DNA of 64,000 bases from Sulfuricurvum sp. (GTDB taxonomy: Bacteria > Campylobacterota > Campylobacteria > Campylobacterales > Sulfurimonadaceae), in assembly GCF_028710345.1 (NCBI RefSeq), contig NZ_JAQTUH010000003.1:62001-126000 (forward strand). The letters run 5' to 3'. Within the stretch, counting starts at the first letter, position 1; every line of letters starts with the position of its first letter. This document shows, in pieces, positions 21,869 through 58,063 of this stretch. Position numbers and translations under genes: made by a program. A model generated the notes under the pieces. It was not told the DNA's origin, ran no database searches, and saw only the letters and a program-made list of their open reading frames with translations.

Positions 21869-22348
21869 ATGGTTTTACACTCTATGGAAACACTGCTTGC
21901 ATCAGGTGAATCGTCCGCTATTCTCTCAGCGGTTTCAATAGCATTGGAGCGAAGCGATGAAGTTCCTATGTGGAAACAAAAAACACTCCCCTATGTCGAA
22001 GCGATTTTAAGTGTACTTATCCCCCTACGAGACCAAAATTTACTCTTTGATCCTGAGGGAAATCCTCACAATACCCTAACAACACCCCTCTTTTTACGCT
22101 GGTGCGATTTGATGAGTCTCAAAACACTTGCCTTTACCCTCGCTAAAAGCAATGAAGCTACTCAATTGGTGCGAACTAAAATTACCCAAACCGACTACAC
22201 CCCAATAGAACTCGAAATACTCGGAAAATATCTCAGTAGTTACAGCGTTAATCTCGAAGATGAGTGGCAAGATTTTCCGATTACAAACTATAATCTCCAT
22301 ATCGGAATCACTGCATTAATCGAAAAAATTCTCACAGGAGGTCGCTAA
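21869..22348 (+). CDS. Hypothetical protein, first gene of an unknown pair
   Basis: A 159-residue soluble, mostly helical protein that I do not recognise. Segments such as LPYVEAILSVLIPLRDQNLLF and LRWCDLMSLKTLAFTLAKSN look folded rather than spurious. AAAGGAGCATTAG gives a strong ribosome-binding site. Its stop overlaps the start of the next gene (TAATG), so the two are translationally coupled and probably act together. No signal peptide or catalytic motif is evident. Confidence 0.65.
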   Translation: MVLHSMETLLASGESSAILSAVSIALERSDEVPMWKQKTLPYVEAILSVLIPLRDQNLLFDPEGNPHNTLTTPLFLRWCDLMSLKTLAFTLAKSNEATQLVRTKITQTDYTPIELEILGKYLSSYSVNLEDEWQDFPITNYNLHIGITALIEKILTGGR

Positions 22349-22782
22349 TGGAGCCGTTCGAAGCCAAACCTCTCAACATCACCACCTATCTCTCTCGCAA
22401 CGAGATTGAAGAGCATTTAGCCAATGTTGACTATATCCTCATGGCTGCCCCATCGATGATGGCACCACCAGAGTTGCCACTCCATTTTAGTATCTTTTTA
22501 AACACTTCTAATCCTATCCCCGATGAGATTAAACCTCAAATTCTTGACAAATTTTGCTCACAACTTGGTATTTCCAAAACCCGTTATGTCCTCAGTGATC
22601 TCGTCCGTGTTGCCTTTGCCATTACGCCACAAGAGACCCCTATGCCCCGTCACCTCCTCGATGAAGCCGAAGCCAATACCATCCCATGGGTCACCATGCA
22701 TATTATCGATTTTCTAGGGGATGCAGAAGGGTTTAAAGAGGCGAAAGACGGATTAAACGGGTGGAGTTATAGTTATAATTAG
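22348..22782 (+). CDS. Hypothetical protein whose 3' end is duplicated beyond HicAB
   Basis: A 144-residue protein of unknown family (KPLNITTYLSRNEIEEHLAN at the N-terminus, HIIDFLGDAEGFKEAKDG near the C-terminus). It is translationally coupled to the preceding gene. Its last 204 bases (22579-22782) are repeated at 23441-23641 at about 88 percent identity, on the far side of the HicAB cassette. The repeated part encodes the final 67 residues including WSYSYN. The gene itself looks intact. Confidence 0.68.
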   Translation: MEPFEAKPLNITTYLSRNEIEEHLANVDYILMAAPSMMAPPELPLHFSIFLNTSNPIPDEIKPQILDKFCSQLGISKTRYVLSDLVRVAFAITPQETPMPRHLLDEAEANTIPWVTMHIIDFLGDAEGFKEAKDGLNGWSYSYN

Positions 22783-22793
22783 GTTAGGGAAAT

Positions 22794-23150
22794 TTAAATC
22801 CCTATCTCTCTCATCGCTGCTTTTTGTAAAAAAGCTGAACGACTTAAATGCAACGGCTCGATATAGCTGTCGATTTTTTTCACCAAATTCTCAGGCATCG
22901 AGATATTGATTCGTAAACTTTTTTCATTAGTATGTGGTTCGGGTATACTATCTCCCTGAGTAAGAGAGACTTCTACAAAAGCCGAAAAAGCGCTCTGAGC
23001 TGACTCTATCGCCTCTATCGCACTCTCTCCATCACCCATCACCCCTTTAAAATCTTTATAATAGGCAAACCATCCATCACCATCTTCGAGACTCACTTTT
23101 TTGATAACAATCTCATAATCAAGATTCATATAATACTCTAGATTTTTCAT
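22794..23150 (-). CDS. hicB: HicB-type antitoxin
   Basis: A 118-residue antitoxin. The N-terminal half is the partial RNase H-like HicB domain (DGDGWFAYYKDFKGVMGDGE). The C-terminal half is a ribbon-helix-helix DNA-binding segment (RINISMPENLVKKIDSYIEP then LSRSAFLQKAA). The RHH form suggests direct repression of the operon. Its ATG overlaps the hicA stop (ATGA), giving the toxin-first order common for hicAB. The cassette lies between two copies of the 3' end of the upstream unknown gene. Confidence 0.9.
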   Translation of the reverse strand: MKNLEYYMNLDYEIVIKKVSLEDGDGWFAYYKDFKGVMGDGESAIEAIESAQSAFSAFVEVSLTQGDSIPEPHTNEKSLRINISMPENLVKKIDSYIEPLHLSRSAFLQKAAMREIGI

Positions 23151-23377
23151 TTGGTTTCTCCCAAAATTTCTAATACGTGTTTGACATAAATAGCTTTGAT
23201 AGGCTTATGATACGGTATTACAATAGTTGTCGTATTCTCTTTACGAAAAACAAAGTGACTTCCACCGCTGTTGTGACAAACATATCCATAATCTTCCAAA
23301 AGTTTTTTAATATCCTCAAAAAGGATATTTTTTGGATTATTTTTCATGGCTTTGATTAGTTTGTCTTTTTTACTCAT
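23147..23377 (-). CDS. hicA: HicA mRNA interferase toxin
   Basis: A 76-residue HicA toxin with the dsRNA-binding-like fold. The catalytic His is in NSGGSHFVFRKE; VIPYHKPIKAIYVKHVLEIL is the typical C-terminal block. AAAGGTGGCATA precedes the ATG. It is expected to cleave mRNA and tmRNA unless bound by HicB, encoded by the next gene. All key residues look intact. Confidence 0.9.
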   Translation of the reverse strand: MSKKDKLIKAMKNNPKNILFEDIKKLLEDYGYVCHNSGGSHFVFRKENTTTIVIPYHKPIKAIYVKHVLEILGETK

Positions 23378-23440
23378 TATGCCACCTTTAATTACACAAT
23401 CTTACACAATGAAATATTAAACAGATATTAGAAATCACAA

Positions 23441-23641
23441 ACCCGTTACATCCTCAGTGACCTCGTCCGTGTTACCTTCACCATTATACCTCATGAGACG
23501 CCTACCCGTCACCTCCTCGATGAAGTCGAAGCCAATACCATCCCATGGACAACAATGCATATTATCGATTTTCTAGGGGACGCAGAAGGGTTTAAAGAGG
23601 TGAAAGATGGATTGATCGGATGGAGTTATAGTTATAATTAA
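23441..23641 (+). pseudogene. Free-standing copy of the 3' end of the 22348-22782 gene
   Basis: These 201 bases align with 22579-22782 over their whole length with about 24 substitutions and one missing codon, and end at a TAA in place of TAG. The reading frame is open throughout (TRYILSDLVRVTFTIIPHET ... IGWSYSYN), but a TAG lies four codons upstream and no start codon is available. Homology stops abruptly at 23441. It lies immediately beyond hicA and before the HEPN gene. It is a remnant or target duplication, not a functional gene. Confidence 0.9.
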
Positions 23642-23686: not shown

Positions 23687-24106
23687 ATGGCACTTGTCCT
23701 CACCAATTTTTTAAAAGCAATCGAAGCACTGGAGAGATCACTCCAAGCGGATGAAGATGCTTCGACCCTCGCCCTATCCAATGACATACGTGAAAGTATC
23801 CGCGCAGGGGTAATCCAAAATTTCGAAGTGTGCTATGAGCAATCATGGAAAATGATGAAACGGTGGATCGAAAATCATGTGGGAAGTACCTATGTAGACG
23901 GGGTAACGCGCCGTGAGCTATTTCGTGTTGCCGCGGAAAATCGTCTGATTTGCGATGTCGAGCTATGGATGGGATTTCACTCTTCCCGCAACGAAACTTC
24001 GCACACTTACGACCAAGCAACCGCGAACGAAGTGTTTACCGATGCCAAACCATTTTTAATCGAAGTAAAATCTCTTTTTGATACCATCCAATCGCGCAAT
24101 GATTGA
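23687..24106 (+). CDS. HEPN-domain toxin (HI0074-like) of a HEPN-MNT module
   Basis: A 139-residue protein of the HI0074 nucleotidyltransferase-substrate-binding family, part of the HEPN superfamily. The helical fold includes VIQNFEVCYEQSWKMMKRWI and the HEPN catalytic motif R-x4-H as RNETSH (residues 101-106). In characterised HEPN-MNT pairs this subunit is the RNase toxin and the MNT partner is the antitoxin that modifies it. Its stop overlaps the MNT start (ATGATTGA). It directly follows the gene-end remnant at 23641. Confidence 0.88.
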   Translation: MALVLTNFLKAIEALERSLQADEDASTLALSNDIRESIRAGVIQNFEVCYEQSWKMMKRWIENHVGSTYVDGVTRRELFRVAAENRLICDVELWMGFHSSRNETSHTYDQATANEVFTDAKPFLIEVKSLFDTIQSRND

Positions 24107-24389
24107 TCTCTCACCTGATAATCTCGCCCTTTTAAAACAACTCATTACCGAGCATCTTAGCGAATGCGAAATCCGTGTATTCGGATCACGTATTCACGGA
24201 ACGGCAAAACCTTACTCCGACATCGACATCGCCCTTAAATGTAGCTCACCGATTGATCGACGAACGATGAGCCGTCTAAAAGAGGCGTTACAAGAATCCA
24301 CTCTTCCGATACGAGTCGATGTATTGGACTGGAATGCTATTTCGGAGGAGTTTAGAGGGGTGATTGAAGAGGGGTATGAGGTTTTGTAG
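24099..24389 (+). CDS. MNT-type minimal nucleotidyltransferase antitoxin
   Basis: A 96-residue DNA polymerase beta-like nucleotidyltransferase. The motif GSRIHG (29-34) and the metal-binding pair D41-x-D43 in YSDIDIAL are intact, and a third acidic residue lies in IRVDVLDW. In HEPN-MNT systems this enzyme AMPylates the HEPN toxin. The ATG at 24099 is used because it forms the overlap with the HEPN stop and gives the family N-terminus; an upstream in-frame ATG at 24078 lies inside the HEPN gene. Confidence 0.88.
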   Translation: MIDLSPDNLALLKQLITEHLSECEIRVFGSRIHGTAKPYSDIDIALKCSSPIDRRTMSRLKEALQESTLPIRVDVLDWNAISEEFRGVIEEGYEVL

Positions 24390-26883: not shown

Positions 26884-29331
26884 TTATAACCCCTCATTGA
26901 ATTTAACATTGCGTTTGACAACATTCATCAAATAATCAGGTGAATACGGTTTGGTAATATACTCAACCATTCCCGATTCTACCCCACGCATACGGTCTGC
27001 TTTTCCAGAGCGCGATGTAACAGCGATCAATGGGAGATTTTTATATTTGTTGTATTTTTTAATCTCTGCTGCTAACGTATAGCCATCCATACGCGGCATT
27101 TCGATATCGATCAGCATAGCATCAAAGAAATGATCTCCCTGCTTGAGGATATTAAGTGCTTCAATACCGTCATTAGCTTCAACAAGGGTAATTCCCATCG
27201 GTTCAAGTGATTTACGCATAATCGTTCGGTCAGTTTTGGAGTCATCTACAATCATGACACAATAATCGCTTGCACTGTTTTTAGCTCCTAACTTTTTAGC
27301 TTCTCCACTCTCAGATCCAACTGTTGATTTTACCGATTTTGCCATTTGCATTAATGCCGCAACATCAACGATCAAGGTTACGCCACCATCGCCACGAATG
27401 GTTGCACCCGCAATCCCCTCGATACCTTTGAGATATTCTCCAAGAGATTTAATAACGATCTCTTCTTGACCGATGAGCGTATCAACGATAAGTCCGATTT
27501 TACTCTCAGCCAGTCCAAGAACAACAACATACGCATGTTCACTGCTGTCAAAAACACGTTCAACTTCAAAGATATCACCAATATGTACAAGAGAGAGGAC
27601 ATCATCACGTAAACGCATAACGGAACGATTTTCTACTGTATAAATCTCATCTTTGCTAATACGTACTGTCTCAAGAACCGACGCAAGAGGAATAGCATAA
27701 TACTCTTCTTGGACACCAACAAGCAACGCTTGAATAATCGCCAATGTCAATGGTATTTTGAGTTTCATCGACGTCCCTTGACCCACTTCAGAGTCAATAT
27801 CGATCATACCGTTAAGTTTTTCAATGTTGGTTTTTACCACGTCCATACCGACACCGCGACCTGAAACACTGGTCACTTGCGCAGCAGTTGAGAAGCCTGG
27901 ACGAAAAATAAGCCCGAATGCCTCTTTCTCAGACATGGTATCAGACTCTTTTTCAGTGATGATCCCTTTCTCAACCGATTTTTGTTTGAGCATTTCCGCA
28001 TTGAGCCCTTTACCGTCATCAATGATTTGGATAACGATATGGTTCCCCTCATGATATGCTTTAAGCTGAATTGTCCCTACTTCCGGTTTTCCGTTTGCTA
28101 TACGAGTATCACTTACTTCGATACCATGATCACACGAGTTACGGATAATGTGAACCAACGGATCACCGATCTCTTCGACAATCGATTTATCCAATTCAGT
28201 ATCTTCACCGGTGATTTCTAGCTCTATTTTTTTATTAAGCTCACGAGAAAGGTCACGGATCATGCGAGGAAATTTATTAAATACTTTTCCAATCGGAAGC
28301 ATACGGGTTTTCATAACGGCGATTTGTAAATCGGTCGTAACCAACGAAACTATCGAGACGACTTGGTTGAGTTCTTCGAGGAATGCTTCCCCCTCATAAC
28401 GCTCTTCAACATCATCATTGATTTTAATCAGACGGTTTTTACCAAGGACAAGTTCCCCGATTAAGTTCATCAAATGATCCAGACGTTTAACATCTACCCG
28501 AATCGTTTGTTCAACCCCTGAACCACCTTTGTTTTCACTCTCCTCTTTTGGTTCAGCACGTCGAGGTGCAGCCGCCGCTGCAGGTTTGGCTACAGGAGCA
28601 ATTTCTGCTTTAACCACTGGCGCTTGAGGCTCAGGTGTTGCATGAGAGTGTTCACTTTTAGAGGCACGTTTTGCCGAATCTTCTGCTTGTTTTTTTGCTA
28701 ACAATCGTTCAATCTCAGCTTCAACCTCTTCTTCACTCATATTTGAATAATCAGGTTCAGCTTCTTGCTTTTCCGAAGGGGTACTAGTAGCATGTTTTGC
28801 TTTTGCTTCAGCTTGTTTTTCAGCGAGTAAACGCTCTATTTCCGCTTCTACCTCTGCTTCACTCATATCAGAATAATCGGGTTCAGGTTCCGGAGCAACA
28901 GGTTCAGGAGTATGGTCAACTGCTACTGGTTCTTCTACATTCGTTCCACCGTTAGCGACAATATCCAATCGTGCAACACATCCAGATACATCAAGACCGG
29001 AATCTTCACTGCTATCTCGAATACGGACTAACAACGCTTTCATTAAATCGATTGACTCTAAAATGACATCCATAACATTCGGATCAATGACCAAATCACC
29101 GTGACGCGCCATGTTAAGTAAATTTTCCATATGGTGTGTCAAATGGGTTAATACATCAAAATTCAAAAAGGAGCTTGCCCCTTTGATCGTATGAGCAACC
29201 CGAAAGATGCGGTTTAATAAATCCAAATCATCGGGACGTGTCTCTAACTCAACCAAATCTTGGTCAAGCTGTTCGATCAACTCAAATGATTCAACCAAAA
29301 AGTCCTGTAATATTTCTTCAAATTCATCCAT
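26884..29331 (-). CDS. cheA: Chemotaxis histidine kinase CheA with C-terminal receiver domain
   Basis: An 815-residue hybrid CheA (CheAY type, as in Campylobacter and Helicobacter). The HPt domain has His47 in RVAHTIKGASSF. An acidic linker holds two direct repeats of PDYS-D/N-MSE-A/E-EVEAEIERLLA. The dimerisation, ATPase and CheW-like domains follow (LGKNRLIKIND, HIIRNSCDHGIE, GRGVGMDVVK, TLAIIQALLVGV). A receiver domain ends the protein (VMIVDDSKTDRTIMRKS, LIDIEMPRMDGY, ITKPYSP), probably a phosphate sink or feedback element. GGGGTGGAAC precedes the ATG. Confidence 0.97.
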   Translation of the reverse strand: MDEFEEILQDFLVESFELIEQLDQDLVELETRPDDLDLLNRIFRVAHTIKGASSFLNFDVLTHLTHHMENLLNMARHGDLVIDPNVMDVILESIDLMKALLVRIRDSSEDSGLDVSGCVARLDIVANGGTNVEEPVAVDHTPEPVAPEPEPDYSDMSEAEVEAEIERLLAEKQAEAKAKHATSTPSEKQEAEPDYSNMSEEEVEAEIERLLAKKQAEDSAKRASKSEHSHATPEPQAPVVKAEIAPVAKPAAAAAPRRAEPKEESENKGGSGVEQTIRVDVKRLDHLMNLIGELVLGKNRLIKINDDVEERYEGEAFLEELNQVVSIVSLVTTDLQIAVMKTRMLPIGKVFNKFPRMIRDLSRELNKKIELEITGEDTELDKSIVEEIGDPLVHIIRNSCDHGIEVSDTRIANGKPEVGTIQLKAYHEGNHIVIQIIDDGKGLNAEMLKQKSVEKGIITEKESDTMSEKEAFGLIFRPGFSTAAQVTSVSGRGVGMDVVKTNIEKLNGMIDIDSEVGQGTSMKLKIPLTLAIIQALLVGVQEEYYAIPLASVLETVRISKDEIYTVENRSVMRLRDDVLSLVHIGDIFEVERVFDSSEHAYVVVLGLAESKIGLIVDTLIGQEEIVIKSLGEYLKGIEGIAGATIRGDGGVTLIVDVAALMQMAKSVKSTVGSESGEAKKLGAKNSASDYCVMIVDDSKTDRTIMRKSLEPMGITLVEANDGIEALNILKQGDHFFDAMLIDIEMPRMDGYTLAAEIKKYNKYKNLPLIAVTSRSGKADRMRGVESGMVEYITKPYSPDYLMNVVKRNVKFNEGL

Positions 29332-56782: not shown

Positions 56783-56870
56783 TCATATAGATAAAGCAAT
56801 AATATCCACCACTTTTCCCTTACTATTCCCCTTCACATACTCCACAATCATCCCATGAAACCGTGCAAAC
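56783..56870 (-). pseudogene. Free-standing copy of the magIII 3' end
   Basis: On the minus strand this fragment reads FARFHGMIVEYVKGNSKG, then KVVDIIALSI and a TGA. Bases 56804-56869 match 57440-57505, the 3' part of magIII, with three mismatches in 66. Below 56804 the sequences differ: here the frame ends DIIALSI, in magIII it ends NVERINSTI. An AT-rich hairpin (ATATTATT/AATAATAT) lies just beyond the stop. It has no start and no upstream part, so it is a gene-end remnant beyond the BrnTA cassette. Confidence 0.9.
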
Positions 56871-56891
56871 ACTACGAGAAACCGAGACATC

Positions 56892-56920
56892 TTGACAAAT
56901 CATGATATTATCATTATAGT
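56892..56920 (+). promoter_or_regulatory. brnTA promoter with operator palindrome
   Basis: TTGACA (56892-56897) and TATAGT (56915-56920) are separated by 17 bp. The spacer contains the perfect inverted repeat ATGATA-T-TATCAT (56902-56914). BrnA dimers autoregulate brnTA in Brucella, so this is the likely operator. Translation starts only six bases after the -10 element, so the mRNA may be nearly leaderless. Confidence 0.75.
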
Positions 56921-56926
56921 ATCTAT

Positions 56927-57220
56927 ATGAAATCGTTAAAATTTGAATGGGACGATACAAAAGCATCGTCAAATATCACCAAACACGGCGTATCGTTTGA
57001 AGAAGCCAAAACGGTATTTGATGATGATTTTGCCCGTATGATTCCCGATCCCGATCACTCGGAACAAGAAGAACGATTTATCCTGTTGGGGATGAGCTAT
57101 ACGCTGAAAATTTTAGCGGTAGTCCATTGTTACAAAGATCAAGAGGGGATAATTCGGATCATCTCCGCCCGACGATCCACCAAAAACGAAGAACGCCAAT
57201 ACAAGGAGCTATTACCATGA
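56927..57220 (+). CDS. brnT: BrnT toxin
   Basis: A 97-residue BrnT ribonuclease toxin (RelE-like fold). The family signature FEWDDTKASSNITKHGVSFE is complete, followed by EEAKTVFDDDFARMIPDPDH and ILAVVHCYKDQ, ending with IRIISARRSTKNEERQY. It overlaps brnA by four bases (ATGA). There is no ribosome-binding site upstream, fitting initiation close to the transcript 5' end. The cassette lies between two copies of the magIII 3' end. Confidence 0.93.
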   Translation: MKSLKFEWDDTKASSNITKHGVSFEEAKTVFDDDFARMIPDPDHSEQEERFILLGMSYTLKILAVVHCYKDQEGIIRIISARRSTKNEERQYKELLP

Positions 57221-57429
57221 GAGAAGAATACGATTTTTCACAATCCGTCCAAAATCCCTATGCCAAAACGGCAAAAAAACAGATTTCACTCAATGTAGAA
57301 GTGGACACAATAGAATATTTCAAACAACTCGCCCTCAAAACGGGATTGCCGTATCAAACGCTGATGAATTCGTATCTCACCGACTGTGCCATCCGACACG
57401 TCGAACCGCAGGTTAAATGGTCGAGTTAA
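57217..57429 (+). CDS. brnA: BrnA antitoxin
   Basis: A 70-residue antitoxin with a ribbon-helix-helix C-terminal part (KQISLNVEVDTIEYFKQLAL, then TGLPYQTLMNSYLTDCA). The ATG at 57217 has CAAGGAGCTATTACC upstream and overlaps the brnT stop; a longer frame starting at 57127 is rejected. The last codons overlap the 3' end of magIII on the other strand by 17 bases. Confidence 0.93.
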   Translation: MREEYDFSQSVQNPYAKTAKKQISLNVEVDTIEYFKQLALKTGLPYQTLMNSYLTDCAIRHVEPQVKWSS

Positions 57430-58063
57430 TCCTCTCGACATTCACCACTTTCCCCTTACTATTCCCCTTCACATACTCCACAATCATCCCATGAAACCGC
57501 GCAAATGTCTGTTGCAGGGTTGATGCATCGAAGTGCTCACGAATCCCCGCTTCACACCATTCCTGAAGCTCATCATACCCCTCGAACTCATACCCGAATG
57601 CTCGCAGCAGTCGTGCGGTGTAACTGTCTACTACCATCGCATCTCGCAAGCACGCATAACACAGTATCGCATCGGCACTCTCTGGACCGATCCCCTTTTG
57701 CGCCAATAACCATTCTCGATCAACCTCTAAAGCGAACGCTTCAAACGAACCGAAACTTTCCGTAATGGCGTTACAGAGTAAAATGATATTTTTGGCTTTT
57801 GCTTTTATCAGTCCGCTGGGGCGAATTAGCTCCATCAGCGTTTCGGGGTCTATGTGGCACAGTGCTTCTAAGCTAAGGTATCCTGAGTGTGAGAGGTTCT
57901 CTAACGAGGTAACGACTCTGCTCCATTGGGTGTTTTGGGTCAATATCGCACCCACGACCACTTCAAAAGTGCCGTGTTTCGGCCACCAAAGAGGTTGTGT
58001 GTTTTCGAGGAGGTTGAGGCGCTCTAGGGCGGTGTAGAGTTCATAGGAGTCGGTTAAATGCAC
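57413..58063 (-). CDS. magIII: 3-methyladenine DNA glycosylase, MagIII-like (endonuclease III superfamily)
   Basis: A 216-residue helix-hairpin-helix DNA glycosylase. WWPKHGTFEVVVGAILTQNT and LIRPSGLIKAKAKNI match H. pylori MagIII. The HhH is LLAQKGIGPESADAILCY and the catalytic Asp is in MVVDSYTARLL. The four-Cys iron-sulfur cluster of endonuclease III is absent, as in MagIII. The GTG at 58063 has AAAGGATACAT upstream. The C-terminal tail (NVERINSTI) is encoded partly antisense to brnA and differs from the tail on the free copy at 56783, so it seems to be cassette-derived. Confidence 0.88.
   Translation of the reverse strand: MHLTDSYELYTALERLNLLENTQPLWWPKHGTFEVVVGAILTQNTQWSRVVTSLENLSHSGYLSLEALCHIDPETLMELIRPSGLIKAKAKNIILLCNAITESFGSFEAFALEVDREWLLAQKGIGPESADAILCYACLRDAMVVDSYTARLLRAFGYEFEGYDELQEWCEAGIREHFDASTLQQTFARFHGMIVEYVKGNSKGKVVNVERINSTI

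Follow-up and report, generated by a model that had tools for sequence, protein, structure and literature searches.

The window, a 64,000-nucleotide stretch of the 3.01-Mb genome of a Sulfuricurvum species (G000 among the 41 species-level Sulfuricurvum genomes that we compared), contains a BrnT-BrnA toxin-antitoxin (TA) module next to the 3' end of magIII. The magIII gene, which encodes an HhH-GPD DNA glycosylase, is the host gene and is intact (57413..58063, minus strand; Pfam HhH-GPD, 2.6e-14, and window-wise identity). The toxin gene brnT (56927..57220, plus strand; BrnT_toxin PF04365, 3.6e-28) is followed, with a 4-bp overlap, by the antitoxin gene brnA (57217..57429, plus strand; BrnA PF14384, 1.4e-06), whose product ends in KWSS. 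This is the gene order of the BrnTA family, in which the toxin is expected to be an RNase that the partner neutralizes. brnA and magIII are convergent, with a tail-to-tail overlap of 17 bp, and their junction sits in 6–8 bp of microhomology. The promoter and operator region of brnTA (56892..56926, plus strand) is the left edge of the conserved cassette and includes a promoter-like sigma-70 site (TTGACA-17-TATAGT) at 56892–56920. As the original prediction had it, no recombinase, integrase, or transposase lies beside the cassette among the neighboring genes that we scanned with Pfam.

A repeat search of the window found that 66 nt of the intact magIII (57440..57505, minus strand; codons 187–208) recur on the other side of brnTA, on the same strand, at 56804..56869, with 63/66 identical (95%) and a spacing of 636. 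The three mismatches agree with the original prediction, which described two copies of the magIII 3' end. The 66-nt match bears this out, but the left (free) copy does not have the intact gene's ending, ...NVERINSTI*; instead, it continues in frame to its own ending and stop, ...GKVVDIIALSI* (the tail ...IIALSI* is at 56783..56803, minus strand, from the sequence and its translation). Similarly, the 570 bp between the repeats had been said to be exactly the promoter, operator, and genes of brnTA. These 570 bp do hold the promoter-like site and both genes, but they also include the last 27 bp of the intact magIII (57413..57439, minus strand), which are its final codons and stop and include the 17-bp overlap with brnA.

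Just four families of direct repeats of 66 nt or more are present in the whole window; the magIII pair is one, and pieces of a repeat around hicAB are two. (Separately, 28659–28890 holds two adjacent 106-nt copies that are 76% alike, with 126 bp from start to start.) The hicAB repeat (22577–22781 and 23439–23640) is the sole comparable bracketed case in the window, and it has the same architecture, as had been predicted. An intact gene for a 144-aa protein (22348..22782, plus strand) is followed by hicB (22794–23150) and hicA (23147–23377), which together occupy 22794..23377 on the minus strand (Pfam HicB, 1.7e-14; HicA, 7e-11). Beyond them is a free 3' end of the 144-aa gene (23439..23640, plus strand), which is 88% identical to 22577–22781, and then a pair of genes for an NTase_sub_bind (HI0074-type) protein and a nucleotidyltransferase (23687..24389, plus strand). 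In G026 and G002, which lack hicAB, the nucleotidyltransferase pair is all that follows the 144-aa gene; it comes directly after it, with a spacer of about 46 bp, the same as the spacer after the free copy in G000.

Across the genus, magIII is present in 36 of the 41 genomes, and brnTA is found at the same magIII 3' end, convergent and with the same overlap, in four species (G000, G001, G028, and G006). The same architecture in the independent assemblies of G001 and G028 rules out an assembly artefact. Each of the other three species has a second magIII end: 70 bp at 93% identity in G028, about 95–98 bp in G001, and, in the corresponding place in G006, a copy that has decayed. (For the decayed copy, 2 of 500 shuffles scored as high with the G001 query and 10 of 500 with its own.) The free copies in G000 and G028 stay in frame up to a stop at a natural distance. 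The free copy in G001 runs into 35 bp of the tail of brnA, as expected from a second insertion, or from tandem recombination, at a site that was already occupied. In a search of all 41 genomes, clear second copies of the 66-bp repeat were confined to genomes with brnTA, and every brnTA-free genome with a match has a single magIII 3' end. The original prediction would have been undermined by relatives with an empty site that still carried both repeats, or by absence of the pattern from related genomes; instead, just one copy of the gene end is present in the empty-site relatives, and the pattern recurs in Sulfuricurvum.

BrnT is 89–98% identical (amino acids) among the magIII-linked species, with 97–98% in G001 and G028, and the MagIII proteins of these species are about 70% identical. 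(BrnA relatives encoded by unlinked brnTA modules at other places end in KWTS, not KWSS.) At the nucleotide level, comparison of G000 to G001 and G028 gives 94–99% identity for brnTA, versus at most about 79% for the neighboring YmdB and about 60–70% for the bodies of magIII. This difference in identity shows that the brnTA cassette has moved between species. For the presence of brnTA at magIII in four species, homologous recombination between species is a better explanation than four targeted insertions.

We also considered whether the jump in identity at the magIII tail proves that this tail was transferred along with brnTA. This argument is weakened by the conservation of the tail across the genus and by the mixed affinities of G000. 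At magIII codons 187–205 (57449–57505 of the window), codon identity across the genus is 0.62–0.71, as compared to about 0.45 elsewhere, and synonymous positions in the tail are conserved even in genomes without brnTA. Because the magIII tail is so unusually conserved in DNA across the genus, transfer arguments that are based on identity are weakened. A conserved tail would, however, be a good anchor for recombination. As for G000, window-wise identity shows that the body of its magIII resembles one group within the genus, while the tail, from about nt 559, resembles another; in a tree of YmdB, G000 falls with this second group, so its affinity is mixed. Both magIII repeat copies in G000 also resemble this second group, so they do not mark the free copy there as native. 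The bracketed block in G000 may already have been present in a donor and have been acquired from it as a whole.

Several other features of these loci are worth recording. HEPN-nucleotidyltransferase pairs lie downstream of magIII in several species, G003 and G033 among them (loci with such pairs include L021:2932–3634 and L012:2341–3022), so the magIII end gathers other TA-like modules too. Genes for DUF2196 proteins (L021:2675–2935, with similar genes in L017, L025, and L034) have an N-terminal extension that resembles the start of BrnA (MRDEYDFSQS...); the extension may be what is left of an earlier brnTA insertion that became fused to a neighboring gene. In G022 (L043), brnA is intact, while the first part of brnT has been replaced and is interrupted by stops, so that the toxin was lost and the antitoxin was kept. 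Finally, we considered a plasmid or phage as the vehicle for brnTA, but in plasmid and phage collections no relative of BrnT reaches 60% identity.

Close relatives of the hicAB module (85–94% amino acid identity) occur in eight places with different flanks, and the extent of the module is nearly constant, from the stop of hicB to about 60 bp before hicA. The module lies at three different genes in three species, with the local gene's 3' end duplicated beside it in every case (46–205 bp): 205 bp of the 144-aa gene in G000, 46 bp of pepP in G010, and 117 bp of a 135-aa gene in G027. We did not find a clear flanking repeat at the other five of the eight close hicAB insertions, nor at nearly all of the close but unlinked brnTA modules. 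The 144-aa gene and pepP are convergent and abut each other in about 18 species. In G018 their junction holds DUF4160/DUF2442 genes, and in G024 it holds genes for nucleotidyltransferase-like and winged-helix-like proteins (a weak annotation). More broadly, the junction is a hotspot (L187, L189, L200, L186, L196, and L199; 22783–24389 in the window), with various small modules depending on the species. Given these other modules, TA modules seem to collect at the 144-aa/pepP and magIII junctions.

To quantify the association, we compared TA loci in the genus to control gaps. Bracketing repeats were found at 11 of 68 TA loci versus 2 of 327 control gaps, which were random and not matched for accessory-gene context (p = 1e-7). 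(Five control gaps had matches initially, but three of them, from L199, were themselves the hicAB locus and were removed.) By family, 4/29 brnT loci, 5/14 HicA loci, and 2/25 ParE-type loci were bracketed. In some of the eleven, the repeats are not gene ends but intergenic (L212, L218, and L059), and the repeat at L252 was left unclassified. Among brnT loci from many phyla in GTDB, 14 of 74 testable loci were tightly bracketed, versus 11 of 644 matched gaps (p = 8e-9). Some of these GTDB loci are bracketed by attC-like repeats or a terminator, and others by duplicated ends of neighboring genes, two of them 5' ends. (Distant brnTA modules lie between integron attC-like repeats at L113, L117, L140, L147, and L169, with several copies in some of these loci.) The original prediction proposed a general process that places TA modules at gene 3' ends. 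Recurrence is far above chance, with brnTA at magIII in four species, hicAB at three genes in three species, and a ParE-type module at a further gene. But 57 of the 68 TA loci in the genus have no repeat, and outside the genus some cases are at 5' ends or between attC-like repeats.

If the repeats arose by copying in place, then the differences between the copies should reflect decay alone. Across all of the bracketed gene ends, the intact and free copies mostly differ by 5–15%, with 31 synonymous and 19 non-synonymous differences. Copying in place followed by decay predicts that 45% of differences would be synonymous (with transitions weighted), but we observed 62% (p = 0.010). This excess moderately favors copies that came from different lineages, and it disfavors simple duplication in place.

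Only one locus, a cytochrome gene upstream of rnpA in G006, allows the two tails to be told apart cleanly. Here, a ParE-type module (parDE) is followed by an 81-bp second end of the cytochrome gene. The free stop is 242 bp from rnpA, which is the spacing between the cytochrome gene and rnpA at the empty sites in G004, G037, and G011, and the sequence past the free stop is 94–97% identical to those sites. The body of the cytochrome gene in G006 is closest to that of G004 (0.94). Between the free copy and G004, identity is 0.953, and the two agree throughout the last 33 bp, including the TGA. The intact gene, on the other hand, ends in GGGATTTTTTAAAGCCTTAG, which is the type found in G021, and G021 carries the same ParE module at its cytochrome site. 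Because the free copy matches the native end in G004 and the intact end is of the G021 type, the native tail was displaced downstream, and the working gene has a tail that came with the TA pair. So the host gene is not destroyed, as predicted, but in G006 its last 30 bp or so were replaced by a donor-type tail. Likewise, the predicted free gene end is present beyond the module, but in G006 it is the displaced native end and not a simple duplicate that was made in place.

We propose that Sulfuricurvum gained several TA modules, brnTA at magIII among them, by recombination through the end of a neighboring gene, and we give this proposal a probability of about two-thirds. It draws on the recurrence of the pattern, the empty sites, the horizontal transfer, and the donor-type tail in G006, all of which the sequences show. 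A small foreign fragment would arrive with a TA pair still joined to a gene's 3' end, the gene being one that is also present in the recipient. The fragment would recombine with the recipient's gene inside this shared 3' end and would be added, not swapped. The recipient's gene would be completed by the donor's tail, followed by the TA pair, and the native tail would end up downstream, in a truncated copy. The shared stretch of the gene end would form the direct repeat. The most economical route would be for the fragment to be circularized and then to enter by a single crossover of the RecA type, with both the circle and the role of RecA being presumed. A single crossover should leave a donor-type tail on the intact copy and a native tail on the free copy, as seen for the cytochrome gene and parDE in G006; in G000, both magIII copies resemble one group. 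The pepP locus of G010 runs against the expected direction, as the intact tail looks ordinary and the free tail is odd.

Once in place, a cassette that is flanked by repeats could pass between species by ordinary recombination at the conserved gene end, and this kind of secondary spread seems to account for brnTA in G000, G001, G028, and G006. The DNA might enter by natural transformation, and G000 encodes a ComEC-family protein. Inserts that are flanked by direct repeats should be unstable, but loss of a TA pair by recombination would presumably be punished. We suggest that TA pairs are the inserts that are still seen between repeats because the cells depend on the antitoxin. More speculatively, TA modules within Campylobacterota, and possibly beyond this phylum, might spread as transposase-free cassettes for which any joined gene end serves as a homology arm; they would enter by a single crossover, provide the host gene with a new tail, and be retained through the toxin. 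On this view, restriction-modification systems with their "long target duplication" would move by that process too, and what remains visible of a general, mostly transient insertion route would be the addictive systems. We hold this wider view tentatively and think it somewhat more probably wrong than right.

A close alternative to our proposal requires no circle: on one side, a linear fragment would cross over homologously within the gene's 3' end, and on the other it would be joined illegitimately upstream of the native stop. Such homology-facilitated illegitimate recombination would explain the donor tail on the intact gene, the repeats of 46–205 bp, and the differing spacers at the outer junctions, and it could account for the 6–8 bp of microhomology between magIII and brnA. 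In published cases, however, it mostly deletes recipient DNA, and partial duplications come from recircularized molecules (PMC3240628), so we consider this alternative to be a real contender but unlikely. Transposition-like insertion by some enzyme that acts on the TA cassette, with the target being copied upon insertion, is less plausible still. Such an enzyme would fit the nearly constant ends of hicAB in eight places with different flanks, and the literature on restriction-modification systems speaks of insertion with a long target duplication (PMC3874152; PMC3031569). But the copies mostly differ by 5–15% with a synonymous bias, the intact tail in G006 is of the donor type, repeat lengths vary, and no recombinase gene was seen near the cassette among the scanned neighbors. 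A classical transposon or insertion sequence, with a short, fixed target duplication and a transposase, does not fit either, as repeat length varies from 46 to 205 bp and the scanned neighbors include no transposase.

Attachment sites might also produce such repeats, if the cassette were a mini-element that is moved by a tyrosine integrase in trans (with attL and attR as the repeats), or an integron cassette. Insertion at a gene 3' end, with the end restored, is common among integrases and would suit these loci, and several distant brnTA modules do lie between attC-like repeats. But nearly identical hicAB modules at three unrelated gene ends imply that there is no common attachment site, the repeats are plain coding sequence, and a second magIII 3' end was seen in no genome without brnTA, so we consider this explanation very improbable. 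In particular, site-specific insertion targeted to magIII is rejected, since the 3' end fragment is doubled only with brnTA and hicAB uses unrelated genes. An integron cassette at this locus is rejected as well: the repeats are magIII coding sequence, which is single-copy in genomes without this brnTA, and we saw no attC and no integrase among the scanned neighbors. Finally, a brnTA-magIII segment might have been duplicated in tandem in one lineage and then shared by descent. The 35 bp of brnA tail in the free copy of G001 would fit, and tandem duplication may apply to G001 alone. But it fails for hicAB and ParE-type modules at other genes, for empty sites in near relatives, and for 94–99% identity of brnTA among species whose magIII genes are 60–70% identical. 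The other loci exclude it as a general explanation, and we consider it very improbable.

It has long been asked how chromosomal TA modules pass from one genome to another when no mobile-element genes accompany them. Here, several insertions can be set against matching empty sites, and one of them clearly records both the native and the arrived tail, which makes a concrete mechanism testable; also, host genes can gain new C-termini as a by-product of TA insertion. Partial precedents are available. The TA islet ccdO157 (cited in PMC2654758) is likewise a lone chromosomal TA pair in a variable place with no mobile-element genes, but the account of it in PMC2654758 does not describe a flanking duplication of a gene end. 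In integron cassettes, too, repeats enclose a TA pair that has its own promoter, but those are attC repeats and an integrase is involved, whereas here the repeats are the coding ends of host genes and no attC was seen. As for the mechanism, incoming DNA that recircularizes and integrates by a single crossover gives a foreign insert with partial duplications of 109–950 bp, and duplication products are the majority outcome for linear DNA with one homologous end that enters E. coli (Amarir-Bouhram et al. 2011, PMC3240628). As in our loci, the insert is flanked by a partial duplication of the homologous segment, but that system is laboratory conjugation in E. coli with engineered homology, with no TA modules and no natural spread (PMC3240628).

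The closest known phenomenon is the insertion of restriction-modification systems with long, variable target duplications, including in Helicobacter (Nobusato et al. 2000 and Furuta et al. 2010, as related in PMC3874152 and PMC3031569). Our literature search, with most subscription journals outside its reach, found no earlier report of long target duplication for TA modules at gene ends. According to these reviews, those insertions, like the ones here, are of an addictive module without its own transposase, have variable duplications on the order of 100 bp, and are known from genome comparisons; Helicobacter is in the same phylum as Sulfuricurvum. Long, variable repeats and single-copy empty sites are found in both, but the inserts here are type II TA pairs (brnTA, hicAB, and ParE-type, by Pfam) instead of restriction-modification systems, and they are often at gene 3' ends. 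Relative to what the reviews relate, the Sulfuricurvum loci also add a case with a donor-type tail on the intact gene and the native end in the free copy. Our results thus tie the mobility of TA modules to what has been reported for restriction-modification systems.
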